37,910 bases of DNA. Origin: Bacteroidales bacterium. GTDB taxonomy: Bacteria; Bacteroidota; Bacteroidia; Bacteroidales; UBA932. The stretch's first letter is position 1; each line of letters begins with the position of its first letter. Made by a program: the position numbers and the translations under genes. Under the pieces are notes generated by a model that saw only the letters and a program-made list of their open reading frames with translations, ran no database searches and was not told the DNA's origin. The stretch spans positions 1-37,910 of the forward strand of contig JAFSPR010000057.1 in the NCBI GenBank assembly GCA_017451395.1, written 5' to 3'. Below, piece by piece: positions 8,025 through 11,881 of the stretch.

Positions 8025-8130
8025 CTGGCGCGCAAAACTTTGACACACACGCACTTACGCAAACTCGGGTGCACCTGCAGGTGCACCCGTGGTTTATCAA
8101 GTGGCTGAATTACAGCCGGTTACGCGCCAG
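8025..8130. repeat. 106-bp symmetric palindromic element, copy 1
   Basis: The element starts with CTGGCGCG and ends with its reverse complement CGCGCCAG. It has two 41-bp arms around a perfect 24-bp palindrome at 8066-8089 (half-site CGGGTGCACCTG). Read on the minus strand, it begins exactly 4 nt after the stop codon of the gene at 8135. The arm next to the gene also contains a small hairpin (GGCTG...CAGCC). Copy 2 at 11152-11257 has the same length, the same central palindrome and the same 4-nt distance from the stop of a paralogous gene. In matched orientation the gene-proximal arms agree at 34 of 41 bases and the distal arms much less. No U-tract follows the palindrome, so it is not a classical terminator. 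No transposase is nearby. Confidence 0.85.
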
Positions 8131-8134
8131 GGCT

Positions 8135-8671
8135 TTAGAAGCTCAGGACCACTCCGGTGCCGTACTGGCCGGCTCCAAAGCGGAGGGATGAGATTGTAGA
8201 CGTATTACGACTATTATAGTCTTTCGCCACCCATTTGAGACGTTGGGTACCAGTAATCCAAAGAGGAATGCCTATGCTAAATAGATGTGCTCCAACATAG
8301 ATAAAACTACCCCCTATGCCTATTAATGCCATTCCGGCAGATTTTTTGGGCTTTATTCCTGATGTGGGATCTATATCTTCGATGTTGTAAAATATATTCC
8401 CGTTGATTAATCCTGCAGTGCCAAGAATAGCTAAAGCGCCTCCTGCAATTGTCAAGCCTCTTCCCACATTAATTTGGCTGCAGGATCCAACGTAAGTATC
8501 GTAATAGATAGATTCCCCAACAGCAAAAAGGATATCTTCATCAGTCAACCGTTCACCGACTTCGTCACGTAGTCTTCCCCCAGAGAACGTCATAGATTGA
8601 GGTATATATTGCGCAAAAGCGCTCCCACTCGTAAGAAGGATAAGGAGCGCTATATGGATTAACTTTTTCAT
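8135..8671 (-). CDS. Small exported membrane protein, paralog of 10572-11147
   Basis: I chose the ATG at 8671 because it gives a proper signal peptide (MKKLIHIALLILLTSGSAFAQ) and overlaps the stop of the upstream phosphopantetheinyl transferase gene by one base (TGATG); a start at 8689 would add six residues. The protein has 178 residues, two glycine-rich hydrophobic segments (about 58-75 and 100-130) and ends FGAGQYGTGVVLSF, identical to its paralog. The function is unknown. The coding body is AT-rich (8341-8400 is 19/60 G+C), but the last 49 bases are GC-rich and match the paralog at 44 of 49 positions. The gene therefore looks like a divergent or foreign body carrying a conserved 3' end. 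A 106-bp element follows 4 nt after the stop. Confidence 0.75.
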   Translation of the reverse strand: MKKLIHIALLILLTSGSAFAQYIPQSMTFSGGRLRDEVGERLTDEDILFAVGESIYYDTYVGSCSQINVGRGLTIAGGALAILGTAGLINGNIFYNIEDIDPTSGIKPKKSAGMALIGIGGSFIYVGAHLFSIGIPLWITGTQRLKWVAKDYNSRNTSTISSLRFGAGQYGTGVVLSF

Positions 8672-9309
8672 CAGTCTCCCACCACCCACACAAGGACGTG
8701 GCGGTCGAAGGTCATGTATTCAAGGTTGAATTCCTGCTCGTCGTCGTCTTTGTCCACGAAGGTGGCTTCAAGCTCACCTTCTCCGCGGTAACGGAAGCGG
8801 TCTACCTCAATCTGCTCTGCGAAATCTACGCTGTAGAGGCTCAGGAGCTTGAAGATGGCTTCCTTGGCGCACCAGTAGATGGCGAGCTGCTCATTGCGCT
8901 TCTCATCGGGGAGATCATCAATCTCATCCTCGCTGAGGGCCTTTTTCTCCACGGCGGAGAAATCACGGTCCAGGGACTCTACGTCTATGCCGCAGTCCTG
9001 GTCTTCGTGGAGGATTACCGCCACATACTTCTCAGTATGGGTTATGGAGATGTTGGTGGGGTTGTTCTCAAGGTAAGGCTTACCGTTGTCGTGGTGGCTC
9101 AGGTATACCTTTTCATCAAAAAGCGTGTTGAGGAGGGCCCTTACCGCAAGGCGCTGCTTGCGGAGGGATTCGCTCTTTATGAACGAGATTTCTTCCATCT
9201 CGTCGGTGGGGGTGGCTGCAAGTTTTACCAGCTCATCCTCGGTTTCTGTAATCTGCCACACGCCGATGGTGGCTTCGTTTTCAAGTTCCTTCTTTAAATA
9301 AAGTGCCAT
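8671..9309 (-). CDS. 4'-phosphopantetheinyl transferase superfamily protein
   Basis: This 212-residue enzyme would transfer the phosphopantetheine arm of coenzyme A to a serine of a carrier protein in the cytoplasm. The two family signatures are present: GIDVE (107-111), which binds magnesium, and WCAKEAIFK (146-154), with the catalytic Glu and Lys in KEA. ISITHTEKYVAV (about 88-99) is the preceding conserved strand region. The length fits the two-lobed Sfp/AcpT type rather than the 120-residue AcpS type. No carrier protein or synthase gene is in the window, so the target may be fatty-acid ACP or a product encoded elsewhere. Its stop overlaps the start of the small membrane protein gene (TGATG). 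Confidence 0.9.
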   Translation of the reverse strand: MALYLKKELENEATIGVWQITETEDELVKLAATPTDEMEEISFIKSESLRKQRLAVRALLNTLFDEKVYLSHHDNGKPYLENNPTNISITHTEKYVAVILHEDQDCGIDVESLDRDFSAVEKKALSEDEIDDLPDEKRNEQLAIYWCAKEAIFKLLSLYSVDFAEQIEVDRFRYRGEGELEATFVDKDDDEQEFNLEYMTFDRHVLVWVVGD

Positions 9310-9387
9310 TACAAAGTGTTCTGAACAACAATAGGAAGCGCCCGATACTCTTTTTGGGGAGGGTATCAGGTTTCTCAGTTAAATGTG

Positions 9388-9472
9388 GTGGACAATCGTG
9401 GGGAAGGATCGTCTGAACCGACGACCTTCAACTGGCTGGATGTGACCGGACTGGGAGGCTCCATACTAATTG
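9388..9472 (-). other. tRNA-like remnant or hairpin in the ppt-mdh intergenic region
   Basis: The 270 bases between the divergent transferase and mdh genes contain, on the minus strand, GGTCGTCGGTTCAGACGATCC-like text (a 5-bp T-arm-like stem with a GGTTCA loop) ending in TCCACCA at about 9389. This resembles the 3' half of a tRNA. I could not build an anticodon arm or an acceptor stem from the rest, so it may be a decayed tRNA, an old attachment-site trace, or chance. The rest of the gap shows only the mdh -7 box. Confidence 0.2.
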
Positions 9473-9536
9473 TTACAAATTCATCCGCAAAGATAATCAT
9501 TTTTATGAATTCAAACACTTTTTGCGCGGAAATTAG

Positions 9537-9544
9537 TATCTTTG
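9537..9544 (+). promoter_or_regulatory. -7 box of mdh
   Basis: TATCTTTG matches TAnnTTTG and lies about 35 bases before the mdh ATG, giving a predicted leader of roughly 30 nt. A TTTG at 9521-9524 is too close to serve as the -33 element. Confidence 0.6.
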
Positions 9545-9579
9545 TGGCTGCAATTGAAACAATGTAAATAGAAAATATC

Positions 9580-10566
9580 ATGAAATTTCTCACTGACGAA
9601 AAACTCCTTATTGTTGGCGCAGCAGGTATGATCGGCTCAAATATGGCCCAGACCGCTGCCTGCCTTGGTCTTTCTTCAAACATCTGCCTCTACGATATCT
9701 TTGAGCCCGGCCTCAAGGGTGTCCTGGCAGAAATGGACCACTGCGCATTCGAGGGCGTGAACTTCACCGCCACCATCGATCCCGCAGAGGCCTTCAAGGA
9801 TGCAAAATACATCATCTCCAGCGGCGGCGCACCCCGCAAGGAAGGCATGACCCGTGAGGACCTCCTCAAGGGCAACTGCCAGATTGCCGCAGAGTTTGGC
9901 GACAACATCAAGAAGTACTGCCCTGACGCCAAGTTCGTGGTGGTTATCTTTAATCCGGCCGATGTTACTGCTCTCACAGCACTCATCCACTCCGGTCTTA
10001 AGCCCTCACAGCTCACTTCCCTTGCAGCCCTTGACAGCACCCGTCTGCAGGAGGCCCTTGCACAGGAATTCGGCGTACCTCAGTACAAGGTTACCGGCGC
10101 CCACACCTATGGTGGTCACGGTGAGGCAATGGCAGTGTTCGCAAGCCAGGTGAAGATTGACGGGAAGCCCCTGTCTGAACTTCCTCTATCGGCCGAAAGA
10201 TTTGCCGAAATCAAGCACAACACCATCCAGGGCGGTTCCAACATCATCAAACTCCGTGGCCGCAGTTCCTTCCAGAGCCCTGCATACCAGGCAGTTAAGA
10301 TGATCGAGGCCGCAATGGGCGGAGACAAGTTCTACTGGCCCGCCGGCACCTATGTTAACGAAGGCAAGTACAAGAACGTGATGATGGCAATGCCTACCGT
10401 AATTGACGCCACAGGCTGCCACTTCACCGCACCTCAGGGTACTGCAGAGGAAATGGCCGCGCTTGACGCCTCCTATGAGCACCTTGTGAAGATGAGGGAT
10501 GAGATTGTTTCCCTCGGCATCGTTCCCGCCGTAGCAGACTGGAAGAAAGACAACGCTAATCTTTAA
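9580..10566 (+). CDS. mdh: Malate dehydrogenase
   Basis: This 328-residue cytoplasmic enzyme interconverts malate and oxaloacetate with NAD(H). In anaerobic Bacteroidales it works in the reductive branch toward fumarate, succinate and propionate. The NAD-binding Rossmann motif GAAGMIGS is at 13-20. SSGGAPRKEGMTR holds the substrate-binding loop, NPADV follows, LDSTRLQEALA carries the conserved Asp and Arg of the family, and AHTYGGHG holds the catalytic His. The C-terminal MAMPTVIDATG fits the lactate/malate dehydrogenase fold. Length is normal. It has its own -7 box and is followed after 5 bases by the small membrane protein gene, so they are probably co-transcribed. Confidence 0.95.
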   Translation: MKFLTDEKLLIVGAAGMIGSNMAQTAACLGLSSNICLYDIFEPGLKGVLAEMDHCAFEGVNFTATIDPAEAFKDAKYIISSGGAPRKEGMTREDLLKGNCQIAAEFGDNIKKYCPDAKFVVVIFNPADVTALTALIHSGLKPSQLTSLAALDSTRLQEALAQEFGVPQYKVTGAHTYGGHGEAMAVFASQVKIDGKPLSELPLSAERFAEIKHNTIQGGSNIIKLRGRSSFQSPAYQAVKMIEAAMGGDKFYWPAGTYVNEGKYKNVMMAMPTVIDATGCHFTAPQGTAEEMAALDASYEHLVKMRDEIVSLGIVPAVADWKKDNANL

Positions 10567-10571
10567 GCAGG

Positions 10572-11147
10572 ATGAAAAAGATCATCGTTCTGGCTATCGC
10601 AGCCGTCGCGTTCATTGCTTCCGGCATTACGGCAAACGCACAGTATCGGCCCAGCACCCTCAGCCAGCACCGCGCAGGCCTTGAGGATGAGAACGGTCAC
10701 ACCCTTACCGACCAGGAAGTTTTCCAACTCATTGGTGAGGATGTCTACAACCAGACCTATGCAGGAGCATGCAAGCAGTACAAAACCGGTAAGATCCTCA
10801 CAATCGTGGGTGCTGCAACCGCAGGCGTCGGCCTGGTTGGTACCATCGCAGGTTCTGTCGCTACTGTTTATGCCATCGAGAACGGCCACGTTACCTATGA
10901 GACACAGAACGGCCAGAAAGTAGTCAAGGGTTATGACGACAAGGCTGCTCTTGCCGTACTGGGCTTTGCCACCGGCATCAGCCTCCTTGCAGCAGGTGAC
11001 ATCTGCCTCAGCGCTGGTATTCCGCTACAGATCATCGGCAAAAAGCGCCTGGACTGGATTGCTGATGAGTATAATCACAGCAACTACAGCGCAAACATCC
11101 GCTTTGGCGCCGGCCAGTACGGCACCGGCGTGGTTCTGAGTTTCTAG
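10572..11147 (+). CDS. Small exported membrane protein, paralog of 8135-8671
   Basis: The 191-residue protein starts with a signal peptide (MKKIIVLAIAAVAFIASGITANAQ) and has two hydrophobic glycine/alanine-rich segments (about 74-98 and 122-150). In between lies a short polar loop (YAIENGHVTYETQNGQKV). It ends FGAGQYGTGVVLSF, as in its paralog. The shared core LTDxxxxxxxGExxYxxTYxGxCxQ near residues 36-62 supports common descent. No function is known to me. The gene follows mdh by 5 bases and, unlike its paralog, has the GC-rich composition of the region throughout. A 106-bp palindromic element starts 4 nt after its stop codon and fills the gap to the convergent nrdG. Confidence 0.75.
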   Translation: MKKIIVLAIAAVAFIASGITANAQYRPSTLSQHRAGLEDENGHTLTDQEVFQLIGEDVYNQTYAGACKQYKTGKILTIVGAATAGVGLVGTIAGSVATVYAIENGHVTYETQNGQKVVKGYDDKAALAVLGFATGISLLAAGDICLSAGIPLQIIGKKRLDWIADEYNHSNYSANIRFGAGQYGTGVVLSF

Positions 11148-11151
11148 GCCC

Positions 11152-11257
11152 CTGGCGCATAAACGGCTGAGATTCAGCCACTTGATAAAAGTCGGGTGCA
11201 CCTGCAGGTGCACCCGTGTTTGTATAATCGGCACAGAATCAGCGCATTACGCGCCAG
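11152..11257. repeat. 106-bp symmetric palindromic element, copy 2
   Basis: The termini are CTGGCGCA and, imperfectly complementary, CGCGCCAG. A perfect 24-bp palindrome (half-site CGGGTGCACCTG) lies at 11193-11216 with exactly 41 bp on each side. The gene-proximal arm forms its own hairpin GGCTGA-GAT-TCAGCC. It occupies almost all of the 113 bases between two convergent stop codons (11147 and 11261), so it could act on transcripts from both sides. See copy 1 at 8025-8130 for the comparison. Confidence 0.85.
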
Positions 11258-11260
11258 CGG

Positions 11261-11767
11261 CTACCGCAGCGGCTCAAGCGCCACGGTGCCGGGGATGTTG
11301 TCCACCGGGGGCTCCCCGTGAAGGTAGATTATGCGCTGATTGGGGCTGCCACGGAAAAGGAGGTCCGTGTCCCTCTGCTCCAGGATGAACGGGCCGTCCA
11401 CAAGGACGTCCAGGTAAGGGAGCATTGCGGCCATCGTGGGATCGGCCTCAACTTCCTCAAGCGTGAATCCGGTCCAGCACCAGATGGTCTTTCCGGTTTC
11501 TTCCTTGATGCGGCGGGCAAGTTCCGTGAACGCCGGCGCCTGGTACATGGGATCCCCTCCGGAGAAGGTTACGTTGGACATTGAATCGGCCTTTACAATT
11601 TCCAAAAGTTCCTCAACGTCCATCCACTTTCCAGCATTGAAATCCCAGCTCTGGGGATTGTGGCACCCTTTGCAGCCATGCTTGCAGCCGGCGCAGTAAA
11701 TGGCCGTCCGGAATCCGGGGCCGTCGGCCATGGTCTGATGCAATATGTCAAGTACCCTGATTTTCAC
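11261..11767 (-). CDS. nrdG: Anaerobic ribonucleotide reductase activating protein
   Basis: This radical-SAM enzyme (168 residues) uses a 4Fe-4S cluster and S-adenosylmethionine to make the glycyl radical on NrdD. The cluster motif is CKHGCKGC (Cys28, Cys32, Cys35; the family C-x3-C-x2-C), with one additional Cys at 25. NVTFSGGDPMYQ (about 65-76) is the SAM-binding GGDP region and GFTLEEV follows. Length is normal. The start is a GTG at 11767. The gene lies 114 bases downstream of nrdD on the same strand. The gap contains alternative hairpins that could set its expression relative to nrdD. It ends 3 bases from a palindromic element. Confidence 0.93.
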   Translation of the reverse strand: MKIRVLDILHQTMADGPGFRTAIYCAGCKHGCKGCHNPQSWDFNAGKWMDVEELLEIVKADSMSNVTFSGGDPMYQAPAFTELARRIKEETGKTIWCWTGFTLEEVEADPTMAAMLPYLDVLVDGPFILEQRDTDLLFRGSPNQRIIYLHGEPPVDNIPGTVALEPLR

Positions 11768-11791
11768 CGTAATTGCTAAATGATTGATTTA

Positions 11792-11836
11792 TAGCCTTTT
11801 GTTAAATTTGCTCCAGGCTAAAAGGCCCGGAGCAAA
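11792..11836 (-). promoter_or_regulatory. Mutually exclusive hairpins between nrdD and nrdG
   Basis: Hairpin A pairs TTTGCTCC (11807-11814) with GGAGCAAA (11829-11836), an 8-bp perfect stem with a short inner GGC/GCC pair. Alternative pairings use the loop of A: GCCTTTT (11794-11800) with AAAAGGC (11820-11826), or TAGCCT (11792-11797) with AGGCTA (11815-11820). These cannot form together with the inner part of A. The arrangement resembles an attenuator or processing site just before the nrdG start. Confidence 0.45.
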
Positions 11837-11881
11837 ATTCACAATTGCCTGTATTTCAATAGTTTAAGTAAAACGGCTACC

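Follow-up and report, generated by a model that had tools for sequence, protein, structure and literature searches.

The stretch of DNA analysed here, 37,910 nucleotides of a Bacteroidales bacterium (GenBank assembly GCA_017451395.1, contig JAFSPR010000057.1; hereafter the window), contains two palindromic elements, W1 at 8025-8130 and W2 at 11152-11257. The original prediction had described them as 106-bp units with 41-nt arms around a perfect 24-bp central palindrome and with ends CTGGCGC...GCGCCAG. This 41-24-41 layout was confirmed, as was the agreement of the gene-proximal (inner) arms at 34 of 41 bases; the distal (outer) arms, which had been said to differ, were compared and are unlike. 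We conclude, with a probability of roughly 0.85, that each element is a REPIN-like unit, composed of two inverted REP-type arms of 41 nt and a central hairpin, and that it serves a RAYT-type single-strand transposase of about 305 amino acids. This conclusion is preferred because the inverted arms with their terminal tags, the structured spacer, the RAYT partners and the pattern of presence and absence match those of REPINs. The elements make up a family of fixed size located at gene ends, matching elements stand beside most of the RAYT genes examined, and one orthologous site is empty.

The genome that contains the window (2.15 Mb, 81% complete; the own genome below) holds many related elements. 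The half-site CGGGTGCACCTG occurs in it 12 times, both strands counted, and the 24-mer is found at 16 places when up to 3 mismatches are allowed, compared with 0 for a reversed control pattern. Copies were collected by BLASTN with W2 and with the core pattern, and 22 of them, including two with a degraded left end (C52 and C65), align over 106 columns with no gaps. A sequence model built from these 22 copies (R1) has 62 or more matches in the own genome at E≤0.01, the 22 and 40 more; this total is a lower bound, with 150 of 720 candidates scored. Further copies of fixed size had been named in advance as the mark of a discrete family and are present; the opposite outcome, that there would be none, was not seen. 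The 40 additional places belong mainly to sister subfamilies, which have other ends and other centers on the same arm plan. That plan is the imperfect dyad TAA-N4-CTGA-N3-TCAG-N4-TTA. The tags at the ends are CTGGC in the window's subfamily and GTGGAG, GTGACAG, GTCGAATG and others in the sister subfamilies, whose centers are different hairpins, often with A- and T-runs alongside. Arms of freely varying length, which had been raised as a sign of mere local duplication, were not seen in the window's subfamily, but the sister subfamilies range from about 92 to 111 nt by model placement and are mostly 105-107 nt long.

Among 60 relatives, R1 found matches in 24 of 36 genomes of the same genus and, weakly, in 2 of 24 from other families of the order. 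The exact pattern occurs at no fewer than 80 loci in named genomes; all of the matches listed are metagenome-assembled genomes of Bacteroidales/Bacteroidia, with isolate names that refer mostly to rumen or another forestomach. Viral contigs searched for the exact 20-bp core gave no match. Two copies of the own genome, C88:2461 and C103:1569, are nearly identical (102/106) and have unlike flanks, and in RGIG7900 (L222) one element links the left flank of C103 to the right flank of C88. At four loci of RUG395 (L175, L176, L180, L182) the center (CGGGTGCACCGCGCGGTGCACCCG with extended flanks) is almost identical and the arms are unrelated; these centers look as if they had been made uniform within the species.

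A partner transposase was found in the own genome and in its genus. The own genome has 5 places that match the Y1_Tnp domain (PF01797), which is matched in 31 of 41 genomes of the genus. A set of 20 proteins, about 305 amino acids in length, aligns as one group, here called long RAYTs, in which H60 and H62 (the HuH motif) and Y120 are invariant in all 20 rows. The Y1_Tnp gathering score was exceeded by each of the 6 proteins scanned, and in the scanned members the C-terminal part, about 160 amino acids long, gave no Pfam hit. Eighteen of the 20 RAYT genes have at least one element within the fetched stretch and 16 have elements on both sides (at distances up to about 1.2 kb), and in 16 of the 20 an element overlaps the stop codon or lies no more than 20 nt from it. 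As judged by eye, the elements that flank a single RAYT gene agree with one another in tag and core. The window's own subfamily flanks a RAYT gene in Tb.RUG.533 (L183) and in UBA4230 (L223). L219 represents the same locus as L223 with the RAYT absent and a single element in its place; the arms at the two loci, compared in search of a hybrid element, agree at 21-27 of 41 positions, near the background for unrelated arms (mean 21.8, 99th percentile 29). In 40 other genomes of the genus, long RAYTs and elements occur together in 22, the RAYT alone in 2, elements alone in 6 and neither in 10 (Fisher p 0.0004, relatedness ignored). In a sample of 393 genomes of the order, which includes just two other genomes of the genus, full-length matches to the long RAYT were confined to the own genome and 38 others matched in the N-terminal domain only; loci around Y1 genes in 29 other genomes of the order yielded nothing with R1 below E 0.1. 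Sequence matches in the PDB were weak (IS200/IS605 TnpA, E 0.0023; TnpA_REP 4ER8, E 0.95). The original prediction had suggested a RAYT-type transposase elsewhere as the partner of a REP/MITE-like, non-autonomous palindrome, and of the options it offered this one fits best, because the own genome and the genus contain RAYT-type genes, the majority of which, among those examined, stand next to matching elements.

Three further arrangements were noted near Y1 genes. The long RAYT of L343 (G017) has a different hairpin repeat, of the GCATGGTAGATTCTACCATGC type, on both sides, and this repeat is not the ~106-bp element. Behind the RAYT of L332 (2341-2713) there are three tandem elements, the third with its center in the opposite orientation. 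A second class of Y1 proteins, with 290-305 amino acids (C40 of the own genome, L325, and G015, L339), has no recognised elements alongside.

The position of the elements relative to genes was determined with a simple script that takes the longest open reading frame (ORF). There were 115 distinct window-type elements, 22 from the own genome and 93 in 80 fetched loci, which include orthologues and are not independent; 110 of the 115 had enough flank. Fifty-nine of these have a 3' end on either side, 41 a 3' end on one side and a 5' end on the other, and 4 a 5' end on either side; 2 were undecided, and the location is extragenic in that only 4 of 110 lie inside an ORF. Of 161 neighbouring 3' ends, 148 fall between -30 and +25 nt from the element, 92 of them between 0 and +10. 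Forty-seven of the 161 stop inside the element, 21 exactly at the TAA of columns 9-11. In shifted control windows 10 of 53 3' ends fell within -30 to +25, and 430 of 492 windows were inside ORFs. The placement is weaker for sister elements (n=40), with 33 of 52 3' ends in this range.

W1 and W2 have the perfect palindrome CGGGTGCACCTGCAGGTGCACCCG at their exact middle, and each strand of both folds with a z-score of -5.0 to -7.4 relative to 200 shuffles, of which 0 were as good. No Rfam 15 family scored over its gathering threshold anywhere in the window. Conservation across the 22 copies falls on the columns of the ends, of TAA/TTA and CTGA/TCAG, and of the core, and the information profile of the 93 further copies has the same columns conserved. 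The original prediction had taken covarying arms as a sign of the family, and here it was not supported: in the 22 copies a long hairpin has 66.9% of cells paired, with 477 of 500 shuffles as high, and a cloverleaf 71.1%, with 475 of 500 as high. Pair-keeping double changes are concentrated beside the core (columns 38-42 with 65-69 in the per-pair tables). With neither fold better than shuffles, the idea that covariation preserves an RNA structure in the arms was not supported. Because pairing does not exceed that of shuffles, the symmetry of the arms within the window's subfamily looks like a repeated recognition sequence rather than RNA pairing. Between subfamilies the ends and centers differ yet, by eye, remain self-complementary. 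Of the 4 element strands of W1 and W2, 3 have a center with a terminator-like score, and the elements abut 3' ends of genes; the earlier suggestion of a bidirectional RNA end may therefore hold for the center, as judged from sequence.

To look for sites without an element, the convergent gene pair around copy C52 was traced through 60 genomes of the genus and 12 stretches were read. G015 has an empty site: only 1 nt separates the convergent stops, and no element is present. An element of another subfamily occupies the locus in G062, in G019 two elements enclose an extra gene, the locus of G036 contains a simple long hairpin that lacks arms, and the remaining stretches have other arrangements. 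No constant target-site duplication was seen by eye beside the copies inspected, the only empty site being that of a distant relative. Both flanks are kept in 57 orthologous pairs, with a mean identity of 86.0% in the flanks, 70.6% in the arms and 91.6% in the core.

The features of the window that are needed for what follows are these.

8025..8130, no strand: element W1, 106 bp, window-type subfamily, ends CTGGCGC/GCGCCAG, core CGGGTGCAC-N6-GTGCACCCG.
8025..8065, 41 nt: outer arm of W1, a 35/41 match to the outer arm of the UBA4230 element L245:946.
8066..8089: core palindrome of W1, terminator-like on the + strand.
8090..8130, 41 nt: inner arm of W1, a 34/41 match to the inner arm of W2.
8135..8689, - strand: orf8135, a paralogue of orf10572 (both C-termini with RFGAGQYGTGVVLSF), its 3' end adjoining W1.
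8671..9309, - strand: 4'-phosphopantetheinyl transferase-like (PPT) gene, PF01648.
9580..10566, + strand: putative malate/lactate dehydrogenase-like (mdh) gene, named from reading the protein, in the middle of the invertible segment.
10572..11147, + strand: orf10572, its 3' end 4 nt from W2.
11152..11257, no strand: element W2, 106 bp, with the convergent orf10572 and radical-SAM gene on either side.
11193..11216: core palindrome of W2, terminator-like on both strands.
11261..11767, - strand: radical-SAM activating enzyme gene, labelled nrdG-like here, PF13353 and PF04055, outer neighbour of W2.
11769..11868: weak sister-subfamily match (E 0.017), core GCTCCAGGC..GCCCGGAGC, missed by a stricter script.

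The stop of orf8135 is 4 nt from W1, and W2 is 4 nt from the stop of orf10572 and 3 nt from that of the radical-SAM gene. Adjoining the elements, the ends of orf8135 and orf10572 are 92% identical over 49 nt. The weak match at 11769-11868 occupies the space that separates the nrdG-like gene from the reductase-like gene after it, and it resembles copy C40:1989 of the own genome. Other intergenic repeats were met in the own genome: clustered palindromes of the GGACCTGGTCCA type in C102 (L070, about 1790-1990) and C73 (L136), and words of the GACCTGCGAC type repeated in an intergenic stretch by C43a (L013 4650-4840, C43), with a similar stretch by C9.

Comparison of this locus between genomes revealed a rearrangement. 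The segment orf10572-mdh-PPT, enclosed by two elements, has the opposite orientation in RUG784 (L232) from that in the window, and in RGIG7900 (L174) PPT adjoins nrdG as in RUG784; RGIG7961 (L215) and UBA4230 (L245) have the gene order of the window. In all four the 3' end of the PPT gene faces an element. The arm on the orf10572 side is identical at 41 of 41 positions in the window and RUG784 despite the different outside neighbour of its element, and both inner arms of RUG784 have this sequence. Inner arms are alike (29-41/41) among the window, RUG784, RGIG7961 and UBA4230, and those of RGIG7900 are not. Among all the flank pairs that could be tested, 19 of 115 lose collinearity across the element, whereas only 1 of 80 does so across a point 1 kb further out (p 0.0004); the rows are not independent, and about 5 loci account for the 19 breaks. 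At L080/L199 one half of the element agrees at 40 of 41 positions and the other at 21 (p 1e-6). Two other apparent half-replacements were not used: L185 versus L236 and L230, which by eye looks like a 1-nt indel in L185, and L078 versus L193, which has little left flank at a contig end. A tentative idea, to which we give only a minor chance, is that the REPIN-like elements act as chromosomal junction boxes at which exchanges in the core, carried out perhaps by the long RAYT, perhaps by another enzyme, would reorder, invert, add and remove element-capped genes. If so, rumen Bacteroidales would have turned a transposase-tied repeat into a means of reshuffling the order of their genes.

Similar observations may be read without a transposase. 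The elements might be targets of a site-specific recombinase, with the core as 9-6-9 inverted half-sites, its variable 6-bp middle as crossover and the arms as accessory sequences, so that genes between elements are inverted or exchanged. The inversion just described, the inner and outer arms that stay on their own sides, the half-element difference of L080/L199 and the excess of synteny breaks all agree with this. However, ordinary recombination between inverted repeats accounts for the same events, the breaks trace to few loci, and it is the arms, not the center, that the sister subfamilies have in common; no recombinase is tied to the elements, tyrosine and serine recombinases not having been searched for. 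We consider this explanation highly improbable. It is also improbable, in our estimation, that the elements are bidirectional terminator cassettes owned by the host and kept by selection at gene ends, with the RAYT genes merely carrying one. The tight placement at 3' ends, the terminator-like center, the A/T-flanked hairpins of the sister subfamilies and the long persistence at orthologous places would be expected of such cassettes, and the RAYT genes too mostly carry their element at the 3' end. Yet 3 of the 4 convergent gene pairs in the window have no element, with a gap or overlap of 0-2 nt, and an orthologous site is empty. Arms of fixed 41-nt length with sequence-conserved dyads would be superfluous for a terminator, and the match in tag and core extends to both sides of a given RAYT gene, the 5' side included. 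A simple local duplication of a gene and its 3' palindrome has next to no chance: orf8135 and orf10572 are paralogues that are alike over 49 nt of their ends and in the inner arms, but this covers only the likeness of the window pair, the outer arms are unlike, and the own genome has no fewer than 60 other places of this kind. As a full explanation it is refuted by the 22 gapless copies, the 16 core places and the 62 or more model places.

Several observations weigh against the REPIN-like interpretation itself. None of the 5 long RAYTs of the own genome (C3, C41, C80, C101, C73), which is 81% complete, has window-type elements alongside, and the elements of the C73 RAYT are 300-700 nt away. 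No element was recognised beside two of the 20 RAYT genes, L343 and L340, the latter located at the end of a contig; among the genomes of the genus, 6 contain elements but no long RAYT, and 2 contain a long RAYT but no elements. The six proteins compared with the NCBIfam RAYT model NF047646 scored 20.6-41.7 bits against a cut-off of 80, and the structure predicted for the RAYT, from two sequences, was poor (mean predicted local distance difference test score, pLDDT, 45.7). Most orthologous copies look inherited, and movement itself was unseen.

REPIN/RAYT systems are known mostly from Proteobacteria. Our comparison with described systems draws on parts of Bertels and Rainey 2011, Nunvar 2010, Di Nocera 2013 and Quentin 2018, and a literature search that did not cover subscription papers and preprints found no publication on the present elements. 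With the REPINs of PMC3116915 they share, as far as the parts used describe them, an inverted pair of REP-type arms, a hairpin-forming spacer, the extragenic location and subfamilies tied to RAYT genes. They differ in the fixed 41-24-41 length of the window's subfamily, in the ~305-residue RAYT, in the stop-codon placement and in a highly conserved center with variable arms, whereas there the spacer is the less conserved part. Copies also appear to be fewer: the high copy number of REPINs is taken as more than 100 per genome, and the counts here are 22 window-type copies and at least 62 of all types, obtained from the 150 candidates scored out of 720 in a genome 81% complete. Both a long hairpin and a "clover" fold are drawn in those parts of PMC3116915, and for the GI REPINs compensatory changes are reported to keep the long hairpin, unlike in the window's subfamily. 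The canonical REP foot GTAG or GT[AG]G is replaced by CTGG in this subfamily; some sister subfamilies have GTGG or GTAG.

The nearest described entry, in the parts of Quentin 2018 (PMC6006769) used here, is subclass 2.6 of TnpAY1, whose proteins are shorter. These Bacteroidetes proteins have a median of 179 amino acids, a HuH motif NH[LIV]H and the motif YIH[QN]NP, and beside them lie "atypical secondary structures" of which the genome contains further copies. The present proteins resemble them in host phylum, in structured flanks repeated in the genome and in an NNP after the tyrosine, but are about 305 residues long with D/N-H-x-H and fall outside the subclass definition. Subclasses with a large C-terminal domain are given there as not REP-associated, whereas here such a part and REP-type elements occur together. 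In the TIRYT/TIRtron units of PMC3733652, RAYT-like genes are likewise flanked by long, partly self-complementary repeats, some of them repeated in the genome and overlapping gene ends, and REP dimers have structured spacers; Bacteroidales are not named, nor is a common arm dyad described, in the parts of that paper used here. Intrinsic, bidirectional terminators are similar in having a stable hairpin 45-50 nt past stop codons, often between convergent genes; the elements differ in their large flanking arms with conserved dyads of their own, matched to a transposase. The statement that no named family has this layout holds in part; the closest named kind is REPIN/RAYT, with the "atypical secondary structures" of Quentin 2018 as a parallel in the parts of that paper used.

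As a whole, we infer binding, transposition and termination to operate as follows. Once one strand folds, the RAYT would recognise the tag together with the arm dyad, cut the element and copy it to new places. The insertions that survive would mostly be those at stop codons, where the arms could supply stops of their own (TAA in columns 9-11, TGA in columns 17-19) and the center may serve as a two-way terminator. Old copies would persist for long periods and turn into junctions for rearrangements.

The REPIN-like interpretation would make these elements the REPINs of a divergent RAYT group, in which the transposase is longer, several repeat subfamilies with their matched transposases occur in one genome, the layout is unusually strict and the elements are placed at stop codons. 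One arm plan combined with many tags and centers would provide a natural series for the study of specificity between transposase and repeat. The loci compared here also offer candidate cases of inversion and gene gain whose borders coincide with such repeats.

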